Source of the DNA: Halosolutus gelatinilyticus
Lineage (GTDB): Archaea > Halobacteriota > Halobacteria > Halobacteriales > Natrialbaceae
Direction of reading: 5' to 3'
NCBI RefSeq assembly: GCF_023028105.1
Contig: NZ_CP095491.1
Location: forward strand, 806,001-870,000
DNA length: 64,000 nucleotides
A model generated the notes under the pieces. That model worked only from the letters and a program-made list of their open reading frames with translations, was not told the DNA's origin and did not search any database. The position numbers and the translations under genes are program-made. Shown one piece after another: positions 11,460 to 34,625 of the stretch. The stretch's first letter is position 1, and each line of letters starts with the position of its first letter.

Positions 11460-11767
11460 ATCCGCGTCGATCGAGAGTCGGCGACCGATCGCCACCTCGC
11501 GTTTCGCGTTCTCGGCCGCGGGCCCGCGGCCGAACCAGGTGCCGTCTGGAGCGTCTGCGTCGTCCCAATCGGGTAGTCTCGCGGCCCCGACTCGAGGACG
11601 GAGACGAAACTGATGCGACGGAACGGCGTTCGTCGCCGGTCCACTCGTGATCCGGACGACCCGAAATAGGCCCGATGGACGGTCATTGCGAACTACCGTC
11701 ACTCTCGGGCCGCGAGAGGCGCCGTTCTCCCAAGGGGTTACAACCGATCTGTCGTATCCGTCGGTAA
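11460..11767. other. Intergenic interval after the CBS gene
   Basis: I see no supported gene here. The right part may contain the promoter of the small ORF at 11768, because GGTTACAAC at about 11736 is at a suitable distance, but the match to a TATA box is poor. Confidence 0.35.
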
Positions 11768-29240: not shown

Positions 29241-30755
29241 TCAGTCGTCGGTCGTCGGTTCGACGTCCTCCGCCTCCGCGCCGGCGGGTTCCCGATCCGG
29301 CGAGCCCCTGACGTCGCCGGTGCGCCAGGTTCCCCGGCGGAACCAGCCGTAGGCGATGACGGCGCCGGCGACGTTCGAAACGATGAACCCCCACCAGATG
29401 CCGAGCGGTCCGATCGACTCGACGAGCGCCGGGACCGCGATCGACCAGTCGGCGATTCGAAGGGTGACGGGGCCGACCCCGTGACTCAGCGCCGCCGCGA
29501 CGGGCAGTCGGATCAGACCCAGGAACAACACCGCGATCGCCGCGGCCACCAGCGTCTGTCCGGCGCCGCGGAAGACGCCGGTGTACGCGCGGATCACGCC
29601 GATGAAGCCGAACGTGAGCGCGACGTACCGGAGGAACTCGGCAGCCACCGCGACGACGCCTGGATCGTCCGTGAACACGGCGGCGATCGGCGTCGGAACC
29701 AGAAAGATGAACGCGCCCATCGCCCCGAGGACGAGGAACATCGCCTTCGAAGCGAAATGCGCGGTTTGGCCGGCGCGCTCGGGCTTTCGGGCGCCGATGT
29801 TCTGCCCGGCCATGGTCTCGACGCCCTGCGAAACCGCGATCGCCGGCAGGAAGATCACCGAGAAGACGCGGATGCCGATCCCGTAACCGGCGACGACGGT
29901 CGTCGAGAACGCGCCGACGACCAGGAGCATCGCGTTGACCGACGCCGCCCGCGCGGTCCCCTCGACCGAGGCGGGGATCCCGATGTCGAGCATCTTCCGG
30001 AAGTACGCGAGATCCGGCCGCATGTCCGCCGGTCGGATCTTGACGCCGCGGGTTCCGCGGAGCATGATCGCCATCCCGACGACCATCGCCACGCCTCGGG
30101 AGAAGACCGTCGCGTACGCGGCCCCCTCGATCCCCAGTTCCGGGAACGCGATCGTTCCGACCAGCGGAGCGTCGGTTACGACCGTCCACCCGAAGATGAG
30201 AAACGGATCCAGGATCATGTTGACCACGACGGTTCCGAACATCACGAGCATGGGCGTGACCGTGTCGCCGTACCCCCGCATCAGCGAGATGAAGATGAAG
30301 AAGCCGAACATCAGCGGCAGTCCGATCGCGATCACCTGCATGTACGCAGTCGCGGCCGCCAGCGTGTCCGGGGCCGCCCCGAACAGGCGCAACAAGTCGT
30401 CGACGGCCACGTAGCCGACGGCGCCCATAATGGCCGCGGCGACGAACGAGAACAGCACGGTCTGGGAGGCGGCGTACTCCGCTTGCCGATCGTCGCCCGC
30501 GCCGACGTTCTGGGCGACCAGCACCGACCCAGCCACCGAGAGACCGATGCCCAGCGAGATCAGCAGGAAAACCATCGGGAACGCAAAGGAGATGGCCGCC
30601 AGCGCCGTCGTCGAGTACTGTCCCAGCCAGAACGTGTCGACGAGGTTGTAGGCGGTTTGCAGCAGGTTCGTGATGACGATCGGAATGGAGAGATAGAACA
30701 GCGGCCACCCGATCCCGCCGCTCGTGAGGTCGAGTTCGTCGGGGCCTTTGAACAT
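29241..30755 (-). CDS. MATE-family multidrug/cation antiporter
   Basis: The 504-residue protein has twelve predicted membrane segments and the two homologous halves typical of MATE exporters. It starts with GGIGWPLFYLSIPIVITNLL and contains the conserved VAQNVGAG and GQNIGARKPERA loops. The family exports drugs or organic cations in exchange for protons or sodium. The ATG at 30755 shares its A with the TGA of the upstream TetR gene (TGATG), so the two genes are translationally coupled. The TetR repressor presumably controls this pump. Confidence 0.93.
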   Translation of the reverse strand: MFKGPDELDLTSGGIGWPLFYLSIPIVITNLLQTAYNLVDTFWLGQYSTTALAAISFAFPMVFLLISLGIGLSVAGSVLVAQNVGAGDDRQAEYAASQTVLFSFVAAAIMGAVGYVAVDDLLRLFGAAPDTLAAATAYMQVIAIGLPLMFGFFIFISLMRGYGDTVTPMLVMFGTVVVNMILDPFLIFGWTVVTDAPLVGTIAFPELGIEGAAYATVFSRGVAMVVGMAIMLRGTRGVKIRPADMRPDLAYFRKMLDIGIPASVEGTARAASVNAMLLVVGAFSTTVVAGYGIGIRVFSVIFLPAIAVSQGVETMAGQNIGARKPERAGQTAHFASKAMFLVLGAMGAFIFLVPTPIAAVFTDDPGVVAVAAEFLRYVALTFGFIGVIRAYTGVFRGAGQTLVAAAIAVLFLGLIRLPVAAALSHGVGPVTLRIADWSIAVPALVESIGPLGIWWGFIVSNVAGAVIAYGWFRRGTWRTGDVRGSPDREPAGAEAEDVEPTTDD

Positions 30756-31342
30756 CAAGTCTCCCCCTCCCCGTCGAAGTCGATGCCGAGGGTGGATTCG
30801 AGGTACGTCTCGACGAGGGTCCGCGTTTCGGCGGGGTCCTCCCCGAGCGCGACCTCGCGAGTGTGGCCGCCGTTCGTCGCGGTGGCGACGAACCGCGCGA
30901 CCCCGTGCGGATCGGCGTCCGCGAAGACGCCCTCGTCGATGCCGTCCCGAACCGCCTCCGCGACCGTTCGACGGAATCGCTCGTCGAGCGTCCGCAGGCG
31001 CTCGCGGTAGGCCTCGTTGTACGGCGCCTGCGCTTTGATCTCTAGCAGGGCGGTCGGGTACTCCCCGCGATCCTCTTCGGCCCGATCGAACACCGTCGAC
31101 ACGACCGATCGCAGCCGCGTTTCGGGGTCGGCCGAGTCGACGACGATTTCGGACTCGTACCAGTCCGCCACGTGCTCCAGGAACGCTTGCAGCAAGTCCT
31201 CTTTCGTGTCGTAGTGGTAGTGAAGCGTCGCCTTGCTCTTGTCCGTGTGATCCGCGATGCGCTGCATCGTCAGCTCGGCGTACCCGTGCTCACAGAGCGC
31301 GCGATAGATCGCATCCATGATCTCCTCGTCGGCGTCCGCCAT
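30755..31342 (-). CDS. TetR-family transcriptional repressor
   Basis: The 195-residue regulator has a TetR DNA-binding domain with the helix-turn-helix LTMQRIADHTDKSKATLHYH near residues 24-43. A helical ligand-binding domain follows. It precedes and overlaps the MATE gene, and a perfect 20-bp palindrome (31352-31371) lies nine bases before its ATG. It probably represses its own operon and is released when a substrate of the pump binds. Ligand unknown. Confidence 0.94.
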   Translation of the reverse strand: MADADEEIMDAIYRALCEHGYAELTMQRIADHTDKSKATLHYHYDTKEDLLQAFLEHVADWYESEIVVDSADPETRLRSVVSTVFDRAEEDRGEYPTALLEIKAQAPYNEAYRERLRTLDERFRRTVAEAVRDGIDEGVFADADPHGVARFVATATNGGHTREVALGEDPAETRTLVETYLESTLGIDFDGEGET

Positions 31343-31351
31343 CAGTACGAA

Positions 31352-31371
31352 TTGACTAACCGGTTAGTCAA
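31352..31371. promoter_or_regulatory. Perfect 20-bp palindrome, TetR operator
   Basis: The half-site TTGACTAACC is followed directly by its exact reverse complement GGTTAGTCAA. The palindrome covers positions 10 to 29 upstream of the tetR start codon, so a bound dimer would block the core promoter and start site of the tetR-MATE operon. A 20-bp uninterrupted palindrome beside a tetR gene is the expected operator form. Confidence 0.85.
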
Positions 31372-31404
31372 ATGCGTTCCGGACTCGGAATCCGGTCGCG
31401 GTCG

Positions 31405-32142
31405 TCAGTCGAGCGCCGATCGGTACTGGGCGAGCACGTCCTCTTCGGGCGGACCGTCGATCCGGAGTTCCCCGTCGACGATGACCGTGACCCGATCGAA
31501 CAGATCGGCGAAGGCGGCGACGTTGTGCGTCGAGACGACGACGGTTCGATTGCTCTCACGCTGGTAGGACGCGAGAAACGATCGGATCCGTCGCCGGGAA
31601 TACTCGTCGACGTCGGCGAGCGGTTCGTCGAGCAACAGGAACCGCGGGCGCTTGACCAGCGCGAGTGCGAGGTCGAGTTTCGTGCGGAACCCGCCCGAGA
31701 GTTCGTCGGCCCGGCGGTGGGCGGCGGGGGCGAGCCGAAGTTCGTCGAGCAGCGTCTCGGTCCAGGATTCGGGCGGCGGATCGTCGACGAAGCCACGGAA
31801 GACCGCGAGGTTCTCCCGGACGGTCAGGTCGGGGTAGAACCGCGGCTCCTGGAAGCTGTAGCCGACCGACGCGGACGCGCGATCGACCCGGCCGCTGGTC
31901 GGTCGGGCGAGTCCTGCGAGAAGGGCGAACAGGGTGGTCTTGCCCGAACCGTTCGGCCCGATAAGGCCGTGGAACGTCCCCGGTTCGAACGCGAGGCTGA
32001 CCCCTTCGAGTGCTGTCGTTTTCCCGTATCGTTTCGTCGCGTTCGACAGCGCGAGCGGGGCGTCGGTCCCGTCGGGATCGGCGGCGAGATCCGTCGCGTC
32101 GTCGGCGTCGTCGGTAGTCGTATCGTCGGCGGTCGTCTCCAT
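31405..32142 (-). CDS. ABC transporter ATP-binding protein
   Basis: This 245-residue ATPase has a Walker A (GPNGSGKTTLFALLAGLARP, near residue 62), Q-loop (SFQEPRFYP), signature (LSGGFRTKL), Walker B (FLLLDEPLADVDE) and H-loop (STHNVAA). The N-terminal 30 residues are an acidic extension. It is the last gene of a lipoprotein-permease-ATPase operon, three bases after the permease stop. Its match to NatA/CcmA-type exporters is general, so the substrate is unknown. Confidence 0.94.
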   Translation of the reverse strand: METTADDTTTDDADDATDLAADPDGTDAPLALSNATKRYGKTTALEGVSLAFEPGTFHGLIGPNGSGKTTLFALLAGLARPTSGRVDRASASVGYSFQEPRFYPDLTVRENLAVFRGFVDDPPPESWTETLLDELRLAPAAHRRADELSGGFRTKLDLALALVKRPRFLLLDEPLADVDEYSRRRIRSFLASYQRESNRTVVVSTHNVAAFADLFDRVTVIVDGELRIDGPPEEDVLAQYRSALD

Positions 32143-32145
32143 TCG

Positions 32146-33210
32146 TTATCGCCTCCGTTGGTAGACCGCGAGCGCCAGTTTCAGGGCGACGAGCGAGCCG
32201 ATCGCCGTCGCCGCGAGCCAGGACAGGTAATCGGCGTACAGGGCGATCGGCGCGTCTCGAAGCATCGTGCTCCGGATCGCGATCGCCGAGTAGTGGGTCG
32301 GGAGCGCGCGCGAGATGGTCCCCTGGACCGGCGAGAAGAAACCCACGGGATAGACGAGACTCGAGAGGGCGAAGACGCCCAGTGCAACGGCGAGGTTGGC
32401 GAACAGCGCCGTCTTCGTCAGCCGGAGGGCGAAGCACACGGCCAGCCCGATCGCCGCGAGATAGACGAACGTCACCGCCAGAACGAACAGGGTCGACGGG
32501 GACAGCGCCGCGACGTCGATACCCGCCCAGGCCGCGACAGCGGCGACGATCGCCGCCGGGATCACGAGCAGGGCGCCGTGAAAGAGGAGTTTGCTCGCGA
32601 CGACGAGATCCAGCCGGGATTCGGTCTGCAGGCGATCGAGTACCAGTCGCTCGGAGCGCACCTGGTAGGGAAGGTAGACGAGCGCGTACAGGACGACGAA
32701 GACGAACACGCCGGTGGGGACGAGAAACTCCGAGAGGGTCCGGGGATCGCCGACCCGCTCGTGCTCGACGGAGACGGTCGCCGGGAACGCCCGATCGAGT
32801 TCGGATTCGACGAGGCCGACGCTCTCGTCGACCGGTTCCTCGAACGGCACGAACGCGTGGTCCGATCGGACGGTCACGGTCGCGTTCGCCTCCGAGTCCA
32901 TGAGCGATCCGGGAACGCGTATCACCAGGTAGATCTCCTCGCGCCGGAGCGCGCGGGTGGCCTCATCGCTCGTCTCGTACTCCTGCGGCGTCGCGAACGA
33001 CGCGATACCCGCGCGGACGATCGCGACGTCGTTCGCGGACGCGCCGTCGTCGGCGACGACGCCGACCGGCACGTCCCGCGGAATCGTCTGTTCGAAGACG
33101 AGGGTCCCGGCGACGATCGCCCCGGGCAATACCACGAGGAGGACGATCGCGAGGCCGAGGTTGCGACGGGTAGCGATCGCTTCCTTCCGCAACAGCGCGA
33201 GGAGGTCCAC
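32146..33210 (-). CDS. ABC-2 type transporter permease
   Basis: The 354-residue membrane protein has one N-terminal membrane segment, an extracellular domain of about 130 residues, and five or six further membrane segments. This is the ABC-2 (NatB-like) layout, usually found in exporters. It lies between a lipoprotein gene (6 bases upstream) and the ATPase (3 bases downstream), so the three probably form one complex. The large loop may contact the lipoprotein. Confidence 0.92.
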   Translation of the reverse strand: MDLLALLRKEAIATRRNLGLAIVLLVVLPGAIVAGTLVFEQTIPRDVPVGVVADDGASANDVAIVRAGIASFATPQEYETSDEATRALRREEIYLVIRVPGSLMDSEANATVTVRSDHAFVPFEEPVDESVGLVESELDRAFPATVSVEHERVGDPRTLSEFLVPTGVFVFVVLYALVYLPYQVRSERLVLDRLQTESRLDLVVASKLLFHGALLVIPAAIVAAVAAWAGIDVAALSPSTLFVLAVTFVYLAAIGLAVCFALRLTKTALFANLAVALGVFALSSLVYPVGFFSPVQGTISRALPTHYSAIAIRSTMLRDAPIALYADYLSWLAATAIGSLVALKLALAVYQRRR

Positions 33211-33216
33211 GCCCGG

Positions 33217-34227
33217 CTACACCTCCTCGAACAGGGCGAGGACGGCGTCGACGTCGCCCTCGTAGGCGAGCGTGACGGTCGTTCCCTCGCGATCGACCGC
33301 GACCGTCTCCAGCGCGTCGGCGACCGTCTCATCGGTGAGCGGGTTCTCGATCAGGTAGCCGATCGCGCCGCGGACGACCTCCTCGAGCTCGGCGGCGTCG
33401 GATTCGTCTTCGACGGACAGCCCGACGTCGACGGCGATCCCCTCGTCGGCCGCGTCGTACCGTCGGCTGGTGGCGACGACCTCGCCGAAGACGTCGAAAT
33501 CGAGCGGAATCAAGGCCTCGTACTCCGTGGGAACGATCGATCCGGACGGTTCGCTCGCGACGGTCAGCGCGGCGCCGTCCGCAACGGCGTCGTCGTAGGC
33601 GTCGCGAACCGGCCCCGAGATCGCATCGGCCTCGCCGTACCGGACGTCGAGCGAGGCCCGGACCGCGGCTTCGTCGCCGACCACGTAGCGGCCGTCGCCG
33701 TGGACGCCGACGAACGCGGGCTCCGCGTTCCCGTCGGCGTCGACGGGTTCGTAGAGGACGTCCGCACCGCTGGCCGCCGTCAGTTCGTACTCGACGCCCG
33801 TCCGATCCTCGATCGCCGCGACGACGTCGGCCTCGGACCGATCGGTCTCGACGACGTACCCGGTCCCCGCCCCGTCGGCGAGTTCGAACCGGAGCAGTCC
33901 GGTCGTCGCCAGCGGATCGAGGCCGGTCCGGTTCTCGAGGTCCCGCACCATTTCGGCGGTGTCAGCCGCGTCGCCCTCGGCGGCTTCGAGGTCGGCGAGC
34001 AACCGGTCGCCCTCGCCGTCGGCGAGCGCCGCGGCGTCGAGGTGGACGAGCGTCGTCGCGTTCGCCGGGACCTGCGCGACGGGATCGCCGTCGACGCCGT
34101 CCCGATCGTCGCCACCGAGAAATCCGGCGCAGCCCGCCGTGACGACGAGGAGCACGATCGCCGTACCGACGGTCAGATAGCGGACGCCTCGACGGTCGTA
34201 CCGGCGCGGAGGGGATCGCCAGAACAT
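33217..34227 (-). CDS. Lipoprotein of an ABC transport operon, family unknown
   Basis: The 336-residue protein has a signal peptide ending in a lipobox (LLVVTAGC), with the lipidated Cys at residue 33. A 300-residue acidic extracellular part follows, rich in alternating strands and helices. No solute-binding signature is evident. It begins the lipoprotein-permease-ATPase operon, six bases before the permease. I chose the ATG at 34227 because CTTTATCC (34251-34258, minus strand) lies 24-31 bases upstream. It may be a binding or scaffold subunit for the exporter. Confidence 0.85.
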   Translation of the reverse strand: MFWRSPPRRYDRRGVRYLTVGTAIVLLVVTAGCAGFLGGDDRDGVDGDPVAQVPANATTLVHLDAAALADGEGDRLLADLEAAEGDAADTAEMVRDLENRTGLDPLATTGLLRFELADGAGTGYVVETDRSEADVVAAIEDRTGVEYELTAASGADVLYEPVDADGNAEPAFVGVHGDGRYVVGDEAAVRASLDVRYGEADAISGPVRDAYDDAVADGAALTVASEPSGSIVPTEYEALIPLDFDVFGEVVATSRRYDAADEGIAVDVGLSVEDESDAAELEEVVRGAIGYLIENPLTDETVADALETVAVDREGTTVTLAYEGDVDAVLALFEEV

Positions 34228-34460
34228 GGTGACTGTCACTCAACCGAACCGGATAAAGCGTTCGGGTGCCCGGAACGGTTCGCTCCCCCGAGACGCGCGT
34301 CGATCGAGTCCCCGACCGTCACACCGGTCCGAAGGCGATCGATCCCTCGAGGAAATCCGGATCGGGATCGAACGCGGTCGGTCACCGCGACGAATACCGG
34401 TGCGAGACGGCTCCGACAGAGACGGTGTCGGACGACTACGACGGGACCGGCGCCCGGCGA

Positions 34461-34625
34461 CTACGACGGGTGCTGGTGGCGGAGTCGCTCCGCGATCATA
34501 CCGGGGACTGGCGTCCCGCAGTCGCTACACTTCCAGGTCGGATAGACGCCGGTCGTCTCCTTGCGGATGTCCTGGCGGAACCGGAGGGTCGCACCACAGG
34601 TGCACCTGTGGGTCGTCGGCGACAT
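34461..34625 (-). CDS. 54-residue zinc-ribbon protein
   Basis: This small protein has four potential zinc ligands in two pairs, THRCTCGATLRF and TWKCSDCGTPVPG, about 24 residues apart. That fits a zinc ribbon. The ATG at 34625 is preceded by TTTATTC 24-31 bases upstream, so the transcript is probably leaderless. Haloarchaea have many such mini zinc-finger proteins with roles in growth and biofilm phenotypes. The function here is unknown. Confidence 0.8.
   Translation of the reverse strand: MSPTTHRCTCGATLRFRQDIRKETTGVYPTWKCSDCGTPVPGMIAERLRHQHPS

Follow-up and report, generated by a model that had tools for sequence, protein, structure and literature searches.

The window analysed here, a stretch of 64,000 nucleotides from Halosolutus gelatinilyticus, contains on its minus strand a tetR gene followed by a gene for a MATE-family transporter, and ahead of tetR a perfect palindrome. 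The features relevant for the discussion are the following:

31352 to 31371, no strand: putative TetR operator, perfect 20-bp palindrome TTGACTAACCGGTTAGTCAA (symmetry; conservation upstream of homologous tetR genes)
31366 to 31373, minus strand: predicted TATA element ATTTGACT, degenerate, at -31 to -24, which shares bases with the upstream arm of the operator (placed by its location and surroundings in the window and in an alignment of the nearest relatives' promoters)
31377 to 31381, minus strand: CGGAA, a predicted BRE-like motif preceding the TATA element (compared with CGAAA in the promoters of relatives L041 and L045)
30755 to 31342, minus strand: tetR, TetR-family repressor of 195 aa with N-terminal helix-turn-helix (HTH), recognition region DKSKATLHYHYDTKED (domain searches)
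29241 to 30755, minus strand: MATE-family efflux transporter of 504 aa (domain searches; 66-72% identity with the MATE proteins encoded right after the closest TetRs)
30753 to 30757, minus strand: TGATG, in which the stop of tetR and the start of MATE overlap; translational coupling is predicted (sequence; also in the five nearest relatives)

The palindrome consists of 10+10 bp with no spacer, and the flanking bases do not extend the symmetry. It sits inside the 62-bp leader of tetR, nine bases (31343-31351) from the ATG at 31342 on the minus strand, spanning -29 to -10 relative to this start codon. These coordinates agree with the initial annotation of the locus, which had described an uninterrupted 20-bp palindrome nine bases ahead of the tetR ATG.

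It should be stressed that the palindrome by itself proves little, since such palindromes arise by chance: in Markov-1 simulations of like composition, perfect palindromes that reach 20 bp or more number ca 0.43 per 64 kb. On the scale of the window it is thus not significant by itself; its significance comes from where it sits in the tetR leader and from its conservation in other genomes. Two other perfect palindromes can be mentioned here. A GC-rich one of 22 bp, TCGGCCGCGGGCCCGCGGCCGA, lies at 11512-11533, ca 50 bases downstream of a CBS-domain-like ORF, while one of 18 bp, CCACAGGTGCACCTGTGG, at 34594-34611 is apparently located within a small minus-strand zinc-ribbon-like ORF, and is therefore probably coding and not an operator.

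The repressor has the N-terminal TetR_N helix-turn-helix (PF00440, E=3.8e-11) and the C-terminal ligand/dimer domain TetR_C_6 (PF13977, E=7.7e-17), both above the gathering score, and the dyad-symmetric operator near the own or target promoter that marks the family is matched by the palindrome at 31352-31371. It is not the choline-binding repressor BetI, as it scores 44.6 bits against TIGR03384, for which the equivalog cut-off is 201.3. The closest solved relative is the TetR-family transcription regulator PDB 3crj (E=1.6e-40 over residues 2-179), which we take to be of haloarchaeal origin and which is listed with neither function nor operator nor ligand. The transporter matches PF01554 in two stretches (E=1.1e-62) and the TIGR00797 subfamily (260 bits, cut-off 147). 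A mechanism for coupling at overlapping stop and start codons has been described (PMC6728339).

Upstream of tetR, at 31405-34239 on the minus strand, there is an ABC-2 exporter cassette made up of an ATPase, a permease and a lipoprotein-like ORF without Pfam match, which ends 33 bases before the operator. We have considered it as a part of the same unit, but rejected this, because the cassette is absent beside the conserved site in relatives; it is a neighbour.

Conservation of the Site Across Haloarchaea

In the aligned set of homologous TetR genes, a version of the site, defined by at most three mismatches to the 20-mer or one to a 14-mer variant, is found upstream of tetR in 92 of 114 cases, a raw count which overstates independence, as do those below, the Halorubrum sequences in the sample being many near copies. 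In 80 related loci (505 kb), sites at up to three mismatches occur 67 times within 300 nt upstream of a TetR match and three times elsewhere. The reversed pattern gives 17 matches in these loci, all at the same sites in shifted register because the motif has TGAC repeats, and this control is therefore not an independent estimate of the background. Allowing up to four mismatches, the 94 TetR-adjacent sites comprise 42 distinct sequences that fit TTGACTRACYRGTYAGTCAA, with positions 4, 6, 17 and 19 invariant. The 42 distinct forms and their spread over several families hold regardless of the near copies in Halorubrum.

The comparison is sharpest in the nearest clade, where the pairwise identity is 87% in the operator, 31% in the stretch 16-45 bp upstream and 40% in the nine bases downstream, a contrast that reads as a clear footprint. 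In Halorarius halobius, Halorarius litoreus, Halosegnis rubeus and two uncultured Halobacteriales (L039-L043), the MATE gene lies directly 3' of tetR with the same TGATG overlap, and the proteins are 56-62% (TetR) and 66-72% (MATE) identical to those of the window. Operator, MATE neighbour and overlap are thus all kept in this clade, while the flanking DNA has diverged. The conserved order and overlap back the tetR-MATE operon of the initial annotation, and the TGATG that it reported is indeed present at 30753-30757.

The presence of the site tracks the TetR tree, with 5 changes compared to 20.6 for shuffled labels. Some TetRs with a similar helix region (L094, L099 and the KTKG group) have no site, however, which means that the protein sequence does not simply predict it. 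We have also examined the operator variants for a dimer-of-dimers arrangement, and the quarter-site correlations are weak. Halorubrum has the same site ahead of tetR genes that are followed by MFS transporters. A blind motif scan of 125 genomes of the family gives matches in 91, and of the first 29 sites fetched from it, 20 have TetR as well as MATE homologues beside them, two have TetR alone and two have MFS transporters. Two of the TetRs from this family are identical to Natrinema proteins, making it most likely Natrialbaceae. The recurrence of the site beside TetR, MATE and MFS genes across genomes points to an operator of efflux repressors that a clade of TetRs has in common.

Two further occurrences are worth recording. 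At L126 (ca 1460-1560), a stretch of ca 100 bp close to a TetR gene contains three versions of the site, which may form a promoter with several operators. In a Candidatus Thermoplasmatota bin (L061, GSL isolate), the same operator, CTGACTGACCAATCAGTCAA, stands upstream of a TetR gene and a MATE gene, representing either a transfer between phyla or a binning error.

A Second tetR-MATE Pair in the Genome

A scan of the genome for other copies of the half-site had been suggested in the initial annotation. At up to three mismatches, the 20-mer has no other copy in the 4.76-Mb genome. A degenerate 18-mer yields one further good site, the near-identical TGACTAACTAGTCAGTTA at C1:1025128-1025145 (L120, ca 1501-1518), which abuts the GTG start of a second tetR (C1:1025158-1025679). 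This gene overlaps a second MATE gene as ATGA, so that an overlapping gene pair is found here as well as in the window and the five relatives; the two MATE proteins of the genome are 42% identical over the compared part. The remaining five sites, each with three mismatches to the 18-mer, are treated as background because the total of seven matches barely exceeds the six of the reversed control, and a larger regulon in this genome was rejected. This suggests a very small regulon, and there may be cross-talk between the two tetR-MATE pairs. Assignment of the palindrome as the operator of the tetR-MATE operon is supported, with the amendment that this type of operator is not confined to that operon.

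Promoter Geometry

The haloarchaeal TATA and BRE motifs have been given as TTWT and CGAAA, respectively, and 72% of the protein-coding transcripts of Haloferax are leaderless (PMC4983044). In the window, the predicted TATA-like ATTTGACT includes the T's at the 5' end of the palindrome; the TATA and BRE matches are degenerate, and the promoter assignments are made from sequence. This overlap, backed by the phylogenetic footprinting, is in line with the original placement of the palindrome over the core promoter. No bacterial sigma-70 promoter was found here, as expected for an archaeon.

A different arrangement is predicted in Halorubrum, in Halovenus and at the second copy in the same genome. 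There, the TATA element is separate and an 18-bp palindrome ends at the start codon, which puts the operator about one helical turn further downstream than in the window. As the window's site overlaps the predicted TATA element, exclusion of TBP/TFB is the simplest reading and the likely mode of repression, while the operators abutting the start codon predict a block of the polymerase or of the start site instead. Taken together, it is conceivable, although we would put it at less than even odds, that one operator, TTGACTRACYRGTYAGTCAA, serves a whole haloarchaeal clade of MATE/MFS efflux repressors, that its left arm doubles as TATA in the tetR-MATE group and lies ca one turn downstream in the Halorubrum/Halovenus group and the second copy, giving two repression routes (TBP/TFB exclusion and start-site block), and that co-resident pump operons could be cross-regulated.

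Proposed Switch and Alternative Explanations

Because the palindrome recurs before related repressors across haloarchaea, we regard it almost certainly as the site to which the repressor itself binds. From the palindrome, its position, the operon and the cross-genome conservation we infer the following cycle. A TetR dimer, or two dimers on nested repeats, would bind to TTGACTAACCGGTTAGTCAA and so cover the TATA element and the core promoter, and by blocking TBP/TFB or RNA polymerase it would repress its own leaderless bicistronic mRNA, on which the TGATG overlap would couple the translation of MATE to that of tetR. TetR would be released by a ligand, probably one of the substrates of the pump or a comparable compound of amphipathic or cationic nature, and the pump would then be made until the compound is removed. 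This whole explanation, with the palindrome as the adjacent TetR's own operator in a self-repressed tetR-MATE efflux switch, is assigned a probability of roughly 90%. For the compact self-regulated efflux switch of the initial annotation, this means that operator and operon are supported by footprinting and gene order, while binding and autoregulation belong to the proposed cycle.

A competing assignment would make the palindrome mainly the target of the other TetR (C1:1025158-1025679), or a site common to both repressors in one cross-regulated network. Both operators, TTGACTAACCGGTTAGTCAA and CTGACTAACTAGTCAGTTAG, fit the same consensus, the two TetRs have DKSK and YHYDxKED in the HTH region in common, and there are only two convincing sites in the genome. 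The two proteins are, however, only 42% identical and belong to different clades, their recognition segments differ (KATLHY and KSLLFY), and each gene has its own operator immediately upstream. We consider this scenario unlikely, but far from negligible.

Much less probable is that the palindrome acts at the RNA level, as a transcription terminator or hairpin of the upstream ABC-2 operon. The ATPase gene of that cassette is on the same strand and ends at 31405, 33 bases ahead of the palindrome; a hairpin of 8 pairs can form on the strand, and the folding energy of the 62-base leader is -19.6 kcal/mol (z -2.4 relative to shuffles). Good folding as RNA is, however, a property of every perfect DNA palindrome. 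There is neither a T-run nor a terminator call at the palindrome, nor an Rfam match, the conserved site stands in relatives without the ABC cassette, and sites also occur in divergent promoters; the non-conserved context, together with the missing T-run and Rfam match, rules this scenario out for practical purposes. A chance palindrome in an AT-richer intergenic stretch would fit the ca 0.4 such palindromes expected per 64 kb, but it is refuted by the comparative data, as the same sequence is found at the same place in many genomes with diverged flanks, and its probability is vanishingly small.

Comparison with Known Systems

Autoregulated TetR-pump pairs are textbook cases, and the switch is of an ordinary kind; what merits the attention of specialists is the clade-wide occurrence of the operator and its two geometries on the promoter. 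Limited full-text searching of the literature gave no haloarchaeal TetR efflux repressor with a published operator, and searches for the motif returned nothing relevant and no paper describing this operator. With a sequence-defined operator common to many haloarchaeal genera, the regulon can be listed by scanning. The operator is also a candidate for an inducible promoter part in halophile genetics, and its variants offer a natural series for testing one repressor site at different places on an archaeal promoter.

As to the pumps, the MATE proteins 996 and 2898 of Halorubrum amylolyticum CSM52 were cloned in E. coli and there exported Hoechst dye, in a paper that makes no mention of a promoter, operon or palindrome (PMC11721430). 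In strain ZC67 of this species (L071), the MATE beside a tetR with the present operator is 60% identical to the window's pump, and the two genes are divergent, in contrast to the overlapping operon of the window.

An archaeal TetR-family repressor with a solved DNA complex is FadRSa of Sulfolobus acidocaldarius, which regulates lipid genes and, like the case proposed here, binds to a semi-palindromic sequence in the control region of its own gene, in one- or two-dimer modes (PMC6449355). It differs from the window's TetR in that it regulates a 30-kb lipase/beta-oxidation cluster and responds to acyl-CoA; its motif is 16 bp long (PMC6449355). Genomic context gives no sign of FadRSa-type control of fatty-acid or lipase genes, the downstream gene being MATE in the window and its nearest relatives.

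The QacR/TtgR/MtrR class likewise has a TetR-fold repressor beside a drug efflux gene, and gives weak sequence matches to the window's TetR, but the sequence identity is very low and both the operators and the pump families are different. These repressors act at bacterial sigma-dependent promoters.

Finally, the window's TetR groups with the Natronomonadaceae proteins of the nearest relatives (tree support 100/99), while relatives in its own family and genus are only ca 45% identical to it. On the strength of this placement, the window's tetR was likely acquired laterally.
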